From: Acidimicrobiales bacterium
GTDB taxonomy: Bacteria; Actinomycetota; Acidimicrobiia; Acidimicrobiales; SZUA-35
DNA: 39,886 bases
Assembly: GCA_024638815.1 (NCBI GenBank)
Contig: JAHEJM010000003.1
Location: 1 to 39,886 of the forward strand
Direction of reading: 5' to 3'
This document shows, in pieces, positions 21,678-39,886 of the stretch; positions within the stretch are counted from its first letter, which is position 1, and every line of letters starts with the position of its first letter. The position numbers and the translations under genes are program-made. The notes under the pieces were generated by a model that was not told where the DNA came from, searched no databases, and was given only the letters and a program-made list of their open reading frames with translations.

Positions 21678-22643
21678 TCATTCTGCTCTCCGGCCCATTT
21701 TCGTGGCGAAGATGCTCAGCAGTCCGCCCAGCATCACATAGCCGATCACGACTTCGGCCATGGCCAGAATCTGGGCGGCCGTCGACGCCGGAAGCACATC
21801 GCCGTATCCCAGCGTGGTCAGCGTGACCACCGAGTAGTAGACAGGTGACAGCCCGGTTTCGTAGGCGCCGTAATCGACGGCCACGAATTCGTAGGCAACC
21901 GAGAACACGGCGGCCATGAGCATCGTGCACAGCGCCCACCGCAGGTAGCTTCGGCCGCAGTCCGAGGTCGCCCACCACAGGTAGTAGACCAGGGCGTTGA
22001 TCCGGCTCTTGGTCCGGAACTCGTGGAGGTAGTTCTGATCCATGATCGCCCGGCGAACCAGGTAGGCACCGGCGAAGTCCACGCTCAGTATGTCGACCCC
22101 GATCCAGTCGGCCGTCGTGTACTCGGTCAGCCCCTTCACCCGGGAACGGCTGAGATCGGCATCACGGAAGACGGCCCGGCCCACCGCACACTCGCTCAGG
22201 TCGGTGTCGGTCATGTCGGCCCGCGACATGTCGGCCCCGGTCAGCACCGCCTCCCGCAACCGAGCCCCCTTCAGCTTGGCCACCCGCAGGTCGGCGCCGG
22301 TGAGATCGGTATGGGACAGCGACGCACCTTCCAGCGTGGCGTTGAACAGTACGGCGCCGGTCAGATCGGCTCGGCCGAACACGGCGTTGGGGGCATGAAC
22401 CCCGTGAAGGTCGGCCTTTGTCATGGTGGCCCCCAGCAATTGGGCGTTGCTCAAGTCGGCATCGACGAGGGTTGCCTCCGTCAGCACCGTGCCGATCAGA
22501 CGAGCACCGCTCAAGTTCGCCCCCGACAGATCGACACCGGTCAGATCGCGGCCCGACAAATCGGCACCACTCAAGTTCGCCCCCGACAAATCGGCACCGG
22601 CTGCACGTCGATCCTGCCCGCTGGGCGTTTCCGTGCTTGTCAT
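21678..22643 (-). CDS. Pentapeptide-repeat / two-TM potassium channel fusion
   Basis: A 321-residue fusion. Residues about 15-168 are pentapeptide repeats of the A(D/N)LSG type, forming a right-handed quadrilateral beta-helix. After a linker, the first TM helix spans about 232-252. The pore loop has the potassium selectivity filter TLGYGD (277-282) in VTLTTLGYGDVLP, and the second TM helix is about 290-313. This is an Ion_trans_2-type channel with a cytoplasmic pentapeptide domain that probably gates or anchors it. Its ATG overlaps the stop of the HDOD-GGDEF gene by one base (TAATG), so it is translationally coupled to a probable c-di-GMP synthase. Confidence 0.9.
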   Translation of the reverse strand: MTSTETPSGQDRRAAGADLSGANLSGADLSGRDLTGVDLSGANLSGARLIGTVLTEATLVDADLSNAQLLGATMTKADLHGVHAPNAVFGRADLTGAVLFNATLEGASLSHTDLTGADLRVAKLKGARLREAVLTGADMSRADMTDTDLSECAVGRAVFRDADLSRSRVKGLTEYTTADWIGVDILSVDFAGAYLVRRAIMDQNYLHEFRTKSRINALVYYLWWATSDCGRSYLRWALCTMLMAAVFSVAYEFVAVDYGAYETGLSPVYYSVVTLTTLGYGDVLPASTAAQILAMAEVVIGYVMLGGLLSIFATKMGRRAE

Positions 22644-30158: not shown

Positions 30159-31772
30159 CTAGTAATCCCCGGACTGGGCTCGGGCTCGCACCGCTTTCTC
30201 CAAGGCCATCACATGGTTGTAGATCTGCGACCGCTCTTTCATGAGAGCCGAGATCTTGTCGCAGGCATGCATGACCGTTGTGTGGTCCCGGCCACCGAAT
30301 TCGCGGGCGATGTGGGGGAAGCTGAGGTCGGTGAGCTCGCGGGTCACATACATGGCCATCTGCCGGGCGATGACCAGAGGCCGGCGGCGCGATTTGCCGA
30401 TGAGTTCCTCGGTGGCGAACCCGAACTGTTCCACGGTGGCGTCCAGGATCATGGCCACGGTGATGGGTCGGGGCTGACGATCGGCGATGAAGTCGCCCAG
30501 TACCTGTTCGGCCAGGACCTTGTCCAGTGGCTGGTCGGTCAGATTGGCGAACGCCGTCACCTTGTTCAGCGCCCCCTCCAACTCACGGATGTTGTTGGTG
30601 ATGTTGGCGGCGATGAACTCGCTGACGTCGTTGGGCAGGTGGATTGCCTCCCGTTCCGCCTTCTTGCGCAGGATGGCCATACGGGTCTCGATGTCGGGGG
30701 GTTGGATGTCGGTCAGCAGCCCCATCATGAACCGGCTCTTGAGCCGCTCCTCCAGGGTGGGGATGGCATCGGGGGGACGGTCCGACGACAGGACAATCTG
30801 GCTGTTGGCCCCGTAGAGATCGTTGAAGGTGTGGAACAGCTCCTCCTGGAGTCGGTCCTTGCCTTCGATGAACTGGATGTCGTCGACCAACAGCACATTG
30901 ATCTGCCGGTAGCGACGCTTGAACTCATTGGCCGACGAGTTCTTGATGGAGTCGACGAACTCGTTCAGGAAGGTCTCGGTGGAGACATACAATACCTTCT
31001 TCTGCGGCTCCAGATCATTGATGAAGTGTTGGATGGCCCGCAGGATGTGGGTCTTGCCCAGGCCGGCGCTGCCGTAGATGAACAACGGGTTGTAGGAGCC
31101 ACCGGGCCGTTCGGCCACCGAGAGGGCGGCGGCCACCGCGAATCGGTTGGACGGGCCGGTCACGAAGTTCTTGAAGGTGTACCTGGTGCGAAGGTCGTTG
31201 TCGACGTGGGTCAGCGGATCGGCGGGCACACCGGCGGTTGCGGCTGAAGCCCGGGGTGGTGGGATCTCACCGGTCATGGTGGCGTCGGCCATGACCGAGG
31301 CGGCGACGGCCGGTGACGGGCGGGAACGGTACGGGTCGTCCAATCGATGGTCGAAGCCCTCGACCGACGAGTCGACCGGCTGGGCCCGCAGGTCGATGGA
31401 ATTCAGATCGATGGTTCCCTGATGGTTGCGATGCAGGCCATCGGGGCCGTCATCACCGGCGCGGTACCCCCGCCGTCTCGGATCGGACGGTGCCAGGTTG
31501 TGCACTGGGTGGTCACGATCGCTTGGTCCCAACTCGAAGGTCACGGCCAGATCCTGGCCGGCGGCCTCGCACACCGCATCCTCCACCAGAGGTCGGTAGC
31601 GTCCGTCCAGACGATCGCGGAGAATGCCATTCGGCAGTGCCAGGGTGAGCCGGTCCTCGGTGAGCTCGACCGGGGCCAGTTGGGCGAAGGTGCTTTGCCA
31701 CACCCCGTCCGACACCTGGCTACGGAGCAGCTCCGATGCCTCTCCCCACAGCTCGGCCGCCGCGGTCGCCAT
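30159..31772 (-). CDS. dnaA: Chromosomal replication initiator protein DnaA
   Basis: A 537-residue initiator. Domain I is residues 1-90 (WQSTFAQLAPVELTEDRLTL). A long variable domain II of about 120 residues follows. The AAA+ domain has Walker A GSAGLGKTHILRAI and Walker B VLLVDDIQFIEGK. Domain IV carries the DnaA-box-binding signature GRDHTTVMHACDKI. It binds DnaA boxes, including those in the two flanking intergenic regions, to open the origin. The ATG at 31770-31772 is used; GTG at 31775 or TTG at 31796 are alternatives, and none has a strong ribosome-binding site. Confidence 0.96.
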   Translation of the reverse strand: MATAAAELWGEASELLRSQVSDGVWQSTFAQLAPVELTEDRLTLALPNGILRDRLDGRYRPLVEDAVCEAAGQDLAVTFELGPSDRDHPVHNLAPSDPRRRGYRAGDDGPDGLHRNHQGTIDLNSIDLRAQPVDSSVEGFDHRLDDPYRSRPSPAVAASVMADATMTGEIPPPRASAATAGVPADPLTHVDNDLRTRYTFKNFVTGPSNRFAVAAALSVAERPGGSYNPLFIYGSAGLGKTHILRAIQHFINDLEPQKKVLYVSTETFLNEFVDSIKNSSANEFKRRYRQINVLLVDDIQFIEGKDRLQEELFHTFNDLYGANSQIVLSSDRPPDAIPTLEERLKSRFMMGLLTDIQPPDIETRMAILRKKAEREAIHLPNDVSEFIAANITNNIRELEGALNKVTAFANLTDQPLDKVLAEQVLGDFIADRQPRPITVAMILDATVEQFGFATEELIGKSRRRPLVIARQMAMYVTRELTDLSFPHIAREFGGRDHTTVMHACDKISALMKERSQIYNHVMALEKAVRARAQSGDY

Positions 31773-31796
31773 CACCGGGCGTCCGATCGTGGCCAA

Positions 31797-36806: not shown

Positions 36807-36854
36807 GGCCCAAAGAAGCCCAAATCATACCCATTACCACCCATGCCCTACCCC
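36807..36854 (-). repeat. Helically phased G-tract repeat upstream of parA
   Basis: C-tracts on the plus strand (G-tracts on minus) start at 36809, 36819, 36830, 36840 and 36851, spaced 10, 11, 10 and 11 bp, with one extra at 36846. Read on the minus strand, 36842-36812 is one 31-bp unit matching about 20 of 31 positions of the unit at 39670-39700. It lies in the 214-bp gap between rsmG and parA. Confidence 0.6.
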
Positions 36855-36979
36855 ATGTGGGATGATGGCAGAATGGGACGGTTGGTTCGTAGTAGGTTGA
36901 AGAAGGACGCTGTCCCGACAAGATGGCACGGTGCCGTCGACCATCGTCGAGGACACCACCGTCGAGTCAAGGAGTTCCG

Positions 36980-37801
36980 TTGACCGAGACCATTCCTTCG
37001 CCAACCGAGGTCACCCGGCAACCGAGCACCGGCGCGCGGTTGCTGGCGGTGGCCAATCAGAAGGGCGGCGTGGGGAAGACCACCACCACGGTGAACCTCG
37101 GCGCGGCAGCCGCCGAGCAGGGTCATCGGGTGCTCGTCGTTGACCTCGACCCCCAGGGAAACGCCAGCACCGGGCTCGGCATCAACCCCCGCACGCTGGA
37201 GGCGTCGATGTACGACGTGCTGTTGCGGGACGTTCCCATGGACGATGCCATCGAGGCGGCCGCGGTGCGGAATCTCTTCCTGGCTCCGGCCAATCTCGAT
37301 CTGGCCGGGGCCGAGATAGAACTCGTGCCGGCGTTCTCCCGGGAAATGCGGCTGAAGAATGCCCTGGCCAAGGTGTCGGACGACTATGACCTGGTGCTGA
37401 TCGACTGCCCACCGTCACTCGGCCTGCTCACGGTCAACGCCCTGGCCGCGGCCGACGAGGTGCTGGTGCCCATCCAGTGCGAATACTACGCCCTCGAGGG
37501 TCTGGGCCAGCTGCTGCGCAACGTCGATCTTGTTCAGCGCAACCTCAATGCCGAGTTGCATCTGTCCCATATCGTGCTGGTCATGTACGACGCTCGCACC
37601 AACCTTGCCTCCCAGGTGGCGGCCGAGGTTCGGGAGCACTTCGGCGATCTGGTGTGCAGGACGGTCATCCCCCGTACCGTGCGGCTGTCGGAGGCACCCA
37701 GCTTCGGTCAGCCCATCACGGTATTCGACACCGCATCCCGCGGGGCCCTGGCCTATCGGGATTTGGCCCGGGAGATCGCCGGTGAGCCAAGGCCCCGGTG
37801 A
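36980..37801 (+). CDS. parA: Chromosome partitioning ATPase ParA
   Basis: A 273-residue deviant-Walker ParA/Soj ATPase. Walker A is KGGVGKTTTTVNLGAA, Walker A' VDLDPQGNASTGLG, and Walker B LVLIDCPPSLGLLT. It also has the VLVPIQCEYYALEGLGQLL segment and the C-terminal DNA-binding-type basic residues. It positions origins by ATP-dependent nucleoid binding and ParB-stimulated hydrolysis. TTG at 36980 is chosen because AAGGAG lies exactly 5 bases upstream; an ATG-initiated extension at 36923 has no such support. Overlaps parB by 20 bp. Confidence 0.95.
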   Translation: MTETIPSPTEVTRQPSTGARLLAVANQKGGVGKTTTTVNLGAAAAEQGHRVLVVDLDPQGNASTGLGINPRTLEASMYDVLLRDVPMDDAIEAAAVRNLFLAPANLDLAGAEIELVPAFSREMRLKNALAKVSDDYDLVLIDCPPSLGLLTVNALAAADEVLVPIQCEYYALEGLGQLLRNVDLVQRNLNAELHLSHIVLVMYDARTNLASQVAAEVREHFGDLVCRTVIPRTVRLSEAPSFGQPITVFDTASRGALAYRDLAREIAGEPRPR

Positions 37802-38786
37802 CACCGGCAGACGCCAAGGTGACACCGGCGGCGCCGATCCCGATCGTTTCTCGCCCGACCCGGTTACCGGTATCCACTCCCCTGTCCTCGACGCCCTCCT
37901 GTCGGATCTGAGCCGGTCCGAGGACGCCGGGCCCGACCACCGCCCTTTGGGCTCTTCTGCGTCGAAACCGGCTGAACTACGGACGATTTCCGTCGAGTCG
38001 ATTCGGCCCAACGAGTACCAGCCGCGCCGTCGATTCGAAGAGTCGACGCTCAGCGAGTTGGCCGACTCGATTCGGGAGCTGGGCGTGCTGCAGCCGATCC
38101 TGGTTCGCCCCCTTGCCCACGGCGGCTACGAACTGATTGCCGGCGAGCGTCGCTGGCGGGCCGCCAGGCGGGTCGGTTTGGCCGACATTCCGGCCATTAT
38201 CCGCACTACCAGCGATCTGGAGTCGCTGGAGGAGGCGATCGTAGAAAACCTACATCGTGCGGATCTGAACGCCTTGGAGGAAGCCAACGCCTATCAGCAA
38301 CTGGTGGAGGACTTCGCGCTCACCCAGGACGAGGTGGCGCGGCGAGTCGGTCGGAGCCGATCGGCCGTGGCCAACACCTTGCGTCTGCTGCAGCTGCCGG
38401 GATCGGTCCAGCGCCTCATCATGGCCGGCCGGCTGTCCGCCGGCCACGCCCGGGCCGTCTTGGCGGTCCCCGATCCGGTTCGGCAGCGGGAGCTGGCCGA
38501 GTACATGGTCGACGCTCGTCTCTCGGTTCGCCAGGCCGAGGAGTTGGTGAAGTCGACTAGGGAGGCATCCGACGCCCCGGCGGCCAACGCCGCCCCCTCT
38601 TCCCCGCCGTCGACAACGCAGTCGTCGGCGGTGTTGGAGGTTGAAAAGCGTCTGTCGGATCTGCTCGATACCAAAGTAGTCGTTACCGAGAGTTCGAAAA
38701 ACGGCAAGATCACCATTGATTTCGCCGACCGAACCGACCTCGACCGTATCTTCAGCCTGATCCATCCACTGGACGACGGCCCCTAG
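37782..38786 (+). CDS. parB: Chromosome partitioning CTPase/DNA-binding protein ParB
   Basis: A 334-residue ParB. After about 70 variable residues come the N-terminal CTP-binding domain (SVESIRPNEYQPRRRFEEST, then GYELIAGERRWRAAR with the GERRxR arginine box and ENLHRADLN) and the HTH domain that reads parS (LTQDEVARRVGRSRSAVANT, AGRLSAGHARAVL). The C-terminal dimerisation domain is VLEVEKRLSDLLDTKVVV. It loads at parS and spreads as a clamp. GTG at 37782, preceded by GGGAGA, lies inside the parA end. A matching parS is at 39351-39366. Confidence 0.95.
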   Translation: MSQGPGDTGRRQGDTGGADPDRFSPDPVTGIHSPVLDALLSDLSRSEDAGPDHRPLGSSASKPAELRTISVESIRPNEYQPRRRFEESTLSELADSIRELGVLQPILVRPLAHGGYELIAGERRWRAARRVGLADIPAIIRTTSDLESLEEAIVENLHRADLNALEEANAYQQLVEDFALTQDEVARRVGRSRSAVANTLRLLQLPGSVQRLIMAGRLSAGHARAVLAVPDPVRQRELAEYMVDARLSVRQAEELVKSTREASDAPAANAAPSSPPSTTQSSAVLEVEKRLSDLLDTKVVVTESSKNGKITIDFADRTDLDRIFSLIHPLDDGP

Positions 38787-38943: not shown

Positions 38944-39336
38944 TCACGCCGACTCCCACGGGGTCAGTTGACGCTGCGGCTGCCCTGGCGACATCGGCTG
39001 TTCCCAGCTCCGGCACATCGTTTCGAACCGGGCTCGGACGTGATCGTCCATGAGATCGACGTGGCGAGCGAGGAAGGGAGCGAACACGTCCCGGAGGTAG
39101 GCGCTACGGGCCATCCATTGGAGGTACCGGCGGCCGCCGTGATCGTAGGGACCGTAGAGCTGAGAGCCAGGGAACTTCTCATGCATCCAGCGCAGAGTTT
39201 GCTCGTGTCGGGTGTTCATCTTCAGGGTGACTTGCGCCCCTGAGCGTGGAGCCTGCCTGTTGATGTTGAATGATCCCTCACCGACGAGTAGGCCAACCAC
39301 AAACCCGATCTCTCGATCCGTCAACGCCGGCTCCAT
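38944..39336 (-). CDS. Small LAGLIDADG-like endonuclease-family protein
   Basis: A 130-residue protein with a single LAGLIDADG-type helix motif (IGFVVGLLVGEGSFNINRQ, residues about 10-28, acidic Glu at the catalytic-like position). The following strands resemble homing endonuclease half-domains (AQVTLKMNTRHEQTLRWMHE; YGPYDHGGRRYLQWMA). One motif implies a homodimer if it cleaves DNA; it may instead be a domesticated DNA-binding protein. It is not inside an intron or intein. TACACT sits 6 nt before the ATG at 39334-39336, suggesting a leaderless transcript, with a parS site overlapping the promoter. Confidence 0.65.
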   Translation of the reverse strand: MEPALTDREIGFVVGLLVGEGSFNINRQAPRSGAQVTLKMNTRHEQTLRWMHEKFPGSQLYGPYDHGGRRYLQWMARSAYLRDVFAPFLARHVDLMDDHVRARFETMCRSWEQPMSPGQPQRQLTPWESA

Positions 39337-39350: not shown

Positions 39351-39366
39351 AGTTCCACGTGAAACT
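39351..39366. promoter_or_regulatory. parS: parS centromere site
   Basis: The central 14 bp, GTTCCACGTGAAAC (39352-39365), fit the broadly conserved parS core GTTNCACGTGAAAC exactly; the outermost base pair differs from the T...A of the 16-bp consensus. It is the expected loading site for the ParB encoded 0.6 kb away. It lies directly upstream of the -10-like element of the LAGLIDADG-like gene. Confidence 0.82.
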
Positions 39367-39409
39367 GTCGGCAACAGCAGTGATGGCCTGAGCGGGAAGG
39401 GTAAGTAAT

Positions 39410-39472
39410 GGGTACACTCGGGTTTGATCTGGGCTTAATAAGGGTAGATAGGGGTTGAATTCGGGCAATCCC
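39410..39472 (+). repeat. 31-bp phased G-tract repeat, block A (2 units)
   Basis: Units 39410-39441 (32 bp) and 39442-39472 (31 bp) both begin GGGTA. G-tracts start at 39399, 39410, 39420, 39431, 39442, 39452 and 39463, a mean spacing of 10.7 bp. It lies 44 bp from parS. Confidence 0.75.
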
Positions 39473-39607
39473 GTCAACGCCGCTCTGACGGCTGTCCGGC
39501 CGGCAGGCGTTCGCCTACCTGTCCGACTTCAGTACGGATTCGGGGGCGGAAGTGCGACGAGTCGAACCCGAAACTGATCGAGAAGCTCGGTCCGTGCCCC
39601 ATCCGAT

Positions 39608-39762
39608 GGGTACCAACTGGTATGACGGTGGCACTGTTGGGTACAAACCGGTCTCGCAGGGTCGTGTTTGGGTATGAACCGGTATGACGGGGCTCTATTT
39701 GGGCACCAAAGGGATTGAATCGGGCTTGAATGGGTATAAAACGGGTTAATCCGAGGGTATTC
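39608..39762 (+). repeat. 31-bp phased G-tract repeat, block B (5 units)
   Basis: Five contiguous 31-bp units start at 39608, 39639, 39670, 39701 and 39732. Shared positions are GGG plus T/C and A at 1-5, AA near 8-9, GG(T/G) at about 12-14, a third G-tract at about 21-24 and T-rich ends. G-tracts (GG or longer) recur at about 10.4-bp mean spacing across 156 bp. The array ends at the stop codon of the partial gene at 39761. It is not evidently coding. Confidence 0.78.
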
Positions 39763-39886
39763 AGGGCATCGAATACGCCTGATGGTCCAGCAGTTCCATG
39801 GCCAGGAGGACGGCCACCGTCTCCGAGCGGTTCCACCCCCGGGCGTCACCCAGTCTGGTGATCTTGTCGTAGTCCCCGTCGGTCAG
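39761..39886 (-). CDS. Partial small protein, possibly ribbon-helix-helix type
   Basis: The C-terminal 41 residues of a gene that continues beyond the window end: LTDGDYDKITRLGDARGWNR, then SETVAVLLAMELLDHQAYSMP and stop. The pattern of a short strand, a helix, a turn with RS, and a hydrophobic helix resembles CopG/Arc-like ribbon-helix-helix DNA-binding domains, but the N-terminus is missing. Its stop codon touches the end of repeat block B. Confidence 0.45.
   Translation of the reverse strand: MTDGDYDKITRLGDARGWNRSETVAVLLAMELLDHQAYSMP

Follow-up and report, generated by a model that had tools for sequence, protein, structure and literature searches.

What is the function of a helically phased run of G-tracts that adjoins a parS-like site in the origin region of an actinobacterium that is apparently uncultured? 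The window, i.e. the whole stretch of DNA that was analysed, comprises the first 39886 of the 107036 bases of contig C54. The gene orders recF-dnaN-dnaA and rnpA-yidC-jag-rsmG-parA-parB can be read in it, and the array sits in the origin region; ParA and ParB were named by domain match, and the names of the remaining genes in these two clusters are presumptive. Presumptive dnaA, read from the sequence (30159-31796, minus strand), has its start about 7.6 kb from the first array. The canonical partition genes are parA (36923-37801, plus strand, start codon uncertain) and parB (37797-38786, plus strand, start also uncertain), the latter encoding ParB_N, HTH_ParB and ParB_C domains and no N-terminal LG[KR]GL. 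The parS-like site GTTCCACGTGAAAC (39352-39365, unstranded), assigned to the canonical ParB system, fits the parS pattern. Between parB and parS there is also an ORF (38944-39336, minus strand) with a GLLVGEGSF stretch that resembles a LAGLIDADG motif; no supporting family match was found for this ORF.

A phased and oriented array beside parS

The original prediction, which placed a G-tract every 10-11 bp, agrees with what was counted. Runs of at least three G number 21 in 39390-39780, 14 of the 20 successive gaps between them measure 9-12 bp, and the best local period of the G-tract array is 10.6 bp. The phasing was reproduced by none of 2000 dinucleotide-preserving shuffles, which have a mean of 1.8 gaps of 9-12 bp and never reach 14. 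The accompanying claim of a 31-bp repeat stands in part. Trinucleotide matches in 39600-39770 do peak at lag 31 (z 10.8), and some local 31-bp duplication lies on top of the three-turn periodicity; but peaks also occur at lags 11, 10 and 21, and the GGGT-GGGT distances in relatives that bear the operon described below peak at 10-11, 21, 31-32, 42 and 53 bp, with no such peaks in operon-free parB loci or in background sequence. These pair distances are the unbiased evidence on spacing, the chain detector used elsewhere in this study favouring T, TA and gaps of 10-11 bp. Among the 265 sites in chains that score at least 8, TGGGTATGAA is the unit seen most often, the gaps are mostly 10 bp (74) and 11 bp (90), and T follows GGG in 72 %, a figure to be read with the detector's preference for T and TA in mind. 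A 31-bp iteron as the basic unit was rejected on the strength of lags 10, 11 and 21 and of the 10-11-bp GGGT peaks in relatives; the unit is about 10.5 bp (TGGGTATGAA-like, at gaps of 10 or 11 bp), and 31 bp is three such units, or turns.

Array 1 (39399-39465, plus strand), with seven GGG tracts 9-12 bp apart, adjoins parS, and array 2 (39608-39766, plus strand), with about 16 phased GG/GGG tracts of GGGTA type, runs into the 3' end of the gene for a ribbon-helix-helix (RHH) protein. Together they come close to the 'about 23' G-tracts first reported, GG being counted as well as GGG and the grouping into two arrays having been made by eye. The limits first given for the element have to be widened, as array 1 starts near 39399 and not at 39410, and more arrays lie outside that span. 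Array 3 (36807-36853, minus strand) consists of five chained GGG tracts between rsmG and parA, where cross-regulation of parAB is possible, and a further array is located past the window at contig positions 41315-41402, upstream of parA2. The element had also been called non-coding, which is right for almost all of it, the last tract (39764) being inside the 3' end of the gene at 39761-40387 (minus strand). Elsewhere in the window, other tandem repeats occur at 276-366 and 22504-22600 (21/42 bp and 30 bp).

The GC content of arrays 1 and 2 is 49 % and 53 %, against 66 % for the whole window. Together with the helical phasing, this lower GC would suit an element in which alternating GC and AT tracts bend or wrap DNA without a dedicated reader, and a structural or general nucleoid-protein element is indeed what had been proposed. 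However, the array sites are oriented, forming direct repeats that point one way: on the same strand, GGG and CCC runs number 258 and 6 inside arrays, as against 401 and 361 in the flanks. The array GGG count is high by construction, and the informative part is the depletion of CCC, of which about 49 runs would be expected from the flank rate. A strand-neutral bend code was rejected on these counts. The arrays are, moreover, confined to loci of genomes that carry one particular operon and are missing from 21 parB loci of 20 relatives without it, which leaves a purely structural explanation very improbable.

The operon at the edge of the window and its products

The original prediction tied the array to parS, which array 1 does adjoin, but a better partner is an operon at the right edge of the window. 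Here the gene for an adaptor of 208 aa (39761-40387 of C54, minus strand, stop codon at 39761-39763; in-window part 39761-39886) follows the adjacent gene for ParA2 (289 aa), and this minus-strand operon ends in the last 126 bp of the window. In relatives with contigs long enough, the operon sits between parB and trxB; where both of these genes are present, the parB-trxB gap is 564-694 bp in six operon-free loci versus 2.7-13.8 kb in ten operon-bearing loci. The two lie on separate contigs, parB on one and the operon on another, in G001, G006, G007 and G009, where their synteny is presumed.

ParA2 matches Pfam AAA_31 (E 1.5e-17), and its sole PDB match is the segregation protein 1wcv, which we take to be Soj. 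Its Walker A sequence, KGGSCKT in 17/17 proteins, fits KGGXXK[S/T], the deviant Walker A pattern of ParA/MinD-type ATPases. By these matches ParA2 is of ParA/MinD type and not actin-like. Its conservation equals that of canonical ParA (mean identity 0.83 for both, 15 genomes).

None of the three adaptors scanned had a Pfam or NCBIfam match at curated cut-offs; by Pfam the protein has no RHH domain, and unlike the HTH ParB of canonical ParABS, which has both, it has neither a ParB_N CTPase nor an HTH domain. A PDB sequence search gave nothing useful with the adaptor and nothing relevant with the plasmid adaptors discussed below. In the alignment, a conserved start (LG[KR]ARGLNSIA, which resembles LG[KR]GLGSLIP) is followed by a variable tail and a conserved C-terminal stretch of about 90 residues. 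An AlphaFold2 model of a relative's adaptor, built with 12 related proteins (one partial), has strand-helix-helix twice and a disordered tail; pLDDT is at least 90 for 76 of its 172 residues, nearly all of them in the two RHH units. When this model was submitted to Foldseek, all of the 11 highest-ranked matches were to chains from structures of the F-plasmid relaxosome, the best with E 1.5e-3 and probability 1.00; there was no match with E below 0.001, and single-chain Arc was far down (E 1.1). The matches carry no chain names; we take the chains for TraY, since the entry that lacks TraM also has a matching chain and TraY is a tandem RHH protein. The adaptor is thus predicted to hold two RHH domains in one chain, as TraY does, behind a disordered tail; TraY, however, is a relaxosome accessory factor at oriT and not the partner of a ParA. 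An asymmetric single-chain pseudo-dimer of this predicted kind would fit oriented sites.

Three genomes have a phased array within the gene for the adaptor itself (L025:10667-10746, L069:4532-4611 and L070:5905-5982), apparently in the portion that encodes the disordered linker; the same DNA would in these cases encode a linker and carry candidate binding sites.

ParA-family ATPases position many kinds of cargo, and the ParA2-adaptor pair might on that ground move some other cargo, or anchor the origin, instead of serving partition. The predicted DNA-binding fold of the adaptor, along with presumptive sites at the origin, speaks against this idea, which we hold to be most unlikely.

Distribution of the array and the operon

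The genomes used were, as far as seen, all drafts or metagenome-assembled genomes (MAGs). In the family, the adaptor was found in 16 and ParA2 in 17 of 39 genomes, G004 being scored as operon-bearing by ParA2 alone. Wider samples yielded 3/295 genomes of the class, one of which is G194 with a distant ParA-RHH pair, and 1/396 genomes of the phylum, the source genome itself. Apart from the distant pair in G194, the carriers found belong to four genera (g1, g3, g5 and g7) of a single family. The 12 carrier loci of the named collection are all from MAGs, labelled Acidimicrobiales, Acidimicrobiia, Acidimicrobiaceae or, in one case, actinobacterium. The pair in G194 (L041:852-2419), which belongs to another family of the class, is a distant ParA and an RHH-like protein beside a small helix-turn-helix-like gene, and no clear phased array was detected upstream of it. 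A tree of ParA, ParB and RsmG (midpoint-rooted, with RsmG incomplete) unites 14 of the 16 operon-bearing genomes in a single clade (support 0.96) and places G015 and G031 with the operon-free genus g11. The operon was probably gained once, and genome counts are not independent, because the carriers are essentially one clade.

When 61 genomes were searched at the nucleotide level with permissive settings, relatives yielded the adaptor gene but not the array itself, and most of the weaker matches look like chance. Recent arrival on a plasmid or phage was considered and rejected: no relative of the adaptor was present in PLSDB (tblastn, one adaptor), in INPHARED (tblastn, one adaptor) or in IMG/VR (pattern scan and tblastn), and recent arrival is also disfavoured by a ParA2 that is conserved to the same degree as canonical ParA.

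The array follows the operon. The chain detector, which was built after the motif had been seen, favours T and TA, penalises gaps other than 10-11 bp and was run on controls with the same settings, returned 35 chains that score at least 9 across 247 kb from 21 loci of the 17 operon-bearing genomes. It returned none of that score in 64 kb from eight operon-free genomes, none even at score 6 when the operon-free set was extended to 21 parB loci of 20 genomes (151 kb), and none in 346 kb of background from elsewhere in the operon-bearing G000, G005 and G011. When the allowed gaps were lengthened by 3-5 bp or shortened by 3-4 bp, no chain was found at operon-bearing loci; shortening by 4 bp gave one chain in background. 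By genome, a chain of 9 or more is present in 14/17 and of 7 or more in 15/17, and the array is thereby conserved in relatives, as the original prediction required. G017 has only chains below 9, and G015 and G031, operon-bearing members of one genus, have no array by this detector. The weak chain in G017 (L075:7840-7908, score 7.2) is between parA and parB, and ParB there is almost without an N-terminal stretch.

Across the whole of 39 genomes, the pattern GGGTA-N4-6-GGGTA-N4-6-GGGT has 24 matches, 17 in operon-bearing and seven in operon-free genomes. Fifteen of the 17 are beside parB or the operon, as against none of the seven on a parB contig. A reversed control pattern, compared by number of matches, has 36 in these genomes, i.e. 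there is no genome-wide enrichment, and in the source genome two of eight matches to a two-unit pattern are at the locus, with 26 for its reversed control. The evidence therefore lies in the placement of the matches and not in their number, because the reversed pattern is as frequent or more so. Taken together, these results establish the array as genuine, conserved and linked to a single operon.

The same distribution bears on canonical ParB as the reader of the array. In several genomes the array adjoins parS, as would be expected of an aid to loading at parS or to spreading; yet the 20 operon-free relatives keep ParB, with an exact parS match in 14 of their 21 loci, and none has an array, and in operon-bearing genomes arrays are also found beside the operon, away from parS. 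ParB as the array reader was rejected because operon-free relatives keep ParB without arrays, and we give service to ParB hardly any credence.

Canonical ParB tends to differ between the two groups. The motif [LIVM]G[KR]G[LIVMF], searched for as what we take to be the ParA-activating N-terminal peptide (LG[KR]GL), is absent from the ParB N-terminus in 16/16 operon-bearing genomes read, less certainly so in G010, where the stretch before ParB is partly masked, and in G017, where the frame is open for 17 residues before the domain. This count covers 16 of the 17 operon-bearing genomes (G004 had no ParB match; L141 was read by eye). The motif is present in 15 of 21 operon-free loci, which come from 20 of 22 genomes (G003 and G022 had no ParB match), the exceptions being G019 and all five g11 genomes. 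Among loci with an exact match, parS is downstream of parB in 13/13 that bear the operon and upstream of parB in 13/14 that do not, the exception, L139, having it downstream without the operon. Chromosomal ParB activates ParA via an N-terminal peptide (PMC7333895). It is conceivable, if on balance doubtful, that the tandem-RHH protein on the array took over activation of ParA2, or even of ParA1, and that ParB kept parS clamping and SMC loading. For such a hand-over, the motif loss and the parS shift are a lead and not proof, because they concern about one clade.

A candidate plasmid-style partition system on a chromosome

We think it quite probable that the array is the centromere and operator of a second, plasmid-style type-I RHH partition system, which is carried on the chromosome beside canonical parABS and consists of ParA2 as a deviant Walker ATPase, the tandem-RHH adaptor and GGGTA sites every 10-11 bp. 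As to mechanism, we infer that each single-chain adaptor would contact one GGGTA unit through the major groove, using its pseudo-dimeric RHH ribbon, and that adaptors would stack on one face of the DNA into a co-oriented filament, because the units recur once per turn in the same direction. Their disordered tails, with the ParB-like basic motif first, might then reach nucleoid-bound ParA2-ATP and stimulate its ATPase, such that the origin would be carried by a diffusion ratchet, in parallel to or instead of ParB-parS. The operon may also be autoregulated through the arrays at its promoter. Of the original prediction, the idea of a protein-binding repeat that is tied to origin segregation and resembles iterons in logic, with one site per helical turn, thus looks probable.

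RHH proteins often act as repressors, and it might be argued that the adaptor is merely a tandem-RHH autorepressor of the CopG/Arc-like kind whose arrays regulate its own operon, and perhaps parAB, with no part in partition. Several genomes have arrays that precede parA2, and in G000 an array precedes parA, which is in keeping with such an operator. Many others, though, are downstream of the adaptor gene, beside parS or, as in L025, L069 and L070, inside adaptor coding sequence; the arrays seem longer than an operator needs; and a ParA ATPase partners the adaptor wherever the two were seen in a genome. An operator and nothing else is, in our estimation, unlikely.

The closest known parallels to the proposed second partition system are the type-I RHH-ParB (type Ib) systems, namely ParF-ParG of TP228, delta-omega of pSM19035 and the ParAB of pCXC100, which share with it a ParA ATPase, a small RHH protein with a flexible N-terminal tail, fold and tail alike being predicted here, and an adjoining array of short repeats (PMC5016525, PMC13245405). 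In type-I RHH systems this tail bears an arginine that stimulates the ATPase; the adaptor tail, disordered in the model, opens with the conserved LG[KR]ARGLNSIA. In contrast to these, the system considered here is chromosomal, is at the origin, coexists with canonical parABS, has a GGGTA unit every 10-11 bp, has arrays that flank its operon and, in three genomes, others within the gene for the adaptor, and is predicted to have two RHH domains per chain, known type-I RHH adaptors being single-RHH dimers. It is classed as a variant of type-I RHH partition and not as a plain member, because two RHH units are in one predicted chain. Archaeal SegAB also has a chromosomal ParA-like ATPase and an RHH protein with binding sites close to its own operon; as described in PMC9178275 and PMC12284271, SegB binds a palindromic 13-bp motif across the chromosome, whereas the sites here are oriented direct repeats in local arrays. 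ParR-parC, of the type II (ParMRC) systems, likewise has direct repeats of about 10 bp, on which the RHH protein ParR forms a superhelix (PMC5016525), but its motor is the actin-like ParM and not a ParA-type ATPase. Further papers cited are PMC7022226 and PMC5962788.

Among plasmids, the actinobacterial pAL1, pGnB68, pGS01 and pNOCA01 share with this locus a parA followed by a gene for a small protein that reads as two RHH repeats, its best Pfam RHH match being below the cut-off. The ten best-listed plasmid relatives of ParA2 have 30-34 % identity to it, with the ParA of pAL1 at 33 % and of pGS01 at 31 %, and pGnB68 and pNOCA01 not among the ten listed; between the adaptor and the plasmid tandem-RHH proteins, sequence similarity is weak (hhalign probability 19 %, E 0.0012). 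Phased arrays, which are not in the gene tables, occur upstream of parA in 4/4 plasmids with over 400 bp there, at 11 bp in pAL1 (L121), 11 bp in pGnB68 (L128), 12 bp in pGS01 (L123) and 13 bp in pNOCA01 (L125), and differ from the chromosomal arrays in these unit lengths and in sequence. Two of 250 background windows reach the statistic of three of the four plasmid arrays. There was no or weak periodicity in pINDO-MA30-4 and G194; pGKT3 has too little upstream sequence, and pTC1 and the Variovorax plasmid begin at parA. By analogy, ParA2, adaptor and array may so work like the plasmid modules.

What would this mean for the biology of these bacteria? In a 2026 paper (PMC13245405), HTH-ParB systems are described as the only partition type on bacterial chromosomes, and no description of a chromosomal system of ParA2, RHH protein and array was found in the literature searched. 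That statement would have an exception in a conserved RHH-type system that has its own array and shares the origin with parABS, and such a system would make it testable how a chromosome works with two centromeres and whether ParA activation can move between adaptors. Most probably, the array is where a second segregation machine lands, one of a type that is otherwise known chiefly from plasmids. The array signature is suggested as a means of finding unannotated RHH centromeres, whose adaptors, in the three scanned here, escape the family models. Should the hand-over from ParB be true, a bacterial chromosome would be moved by a plasmid-style RHH centromere.
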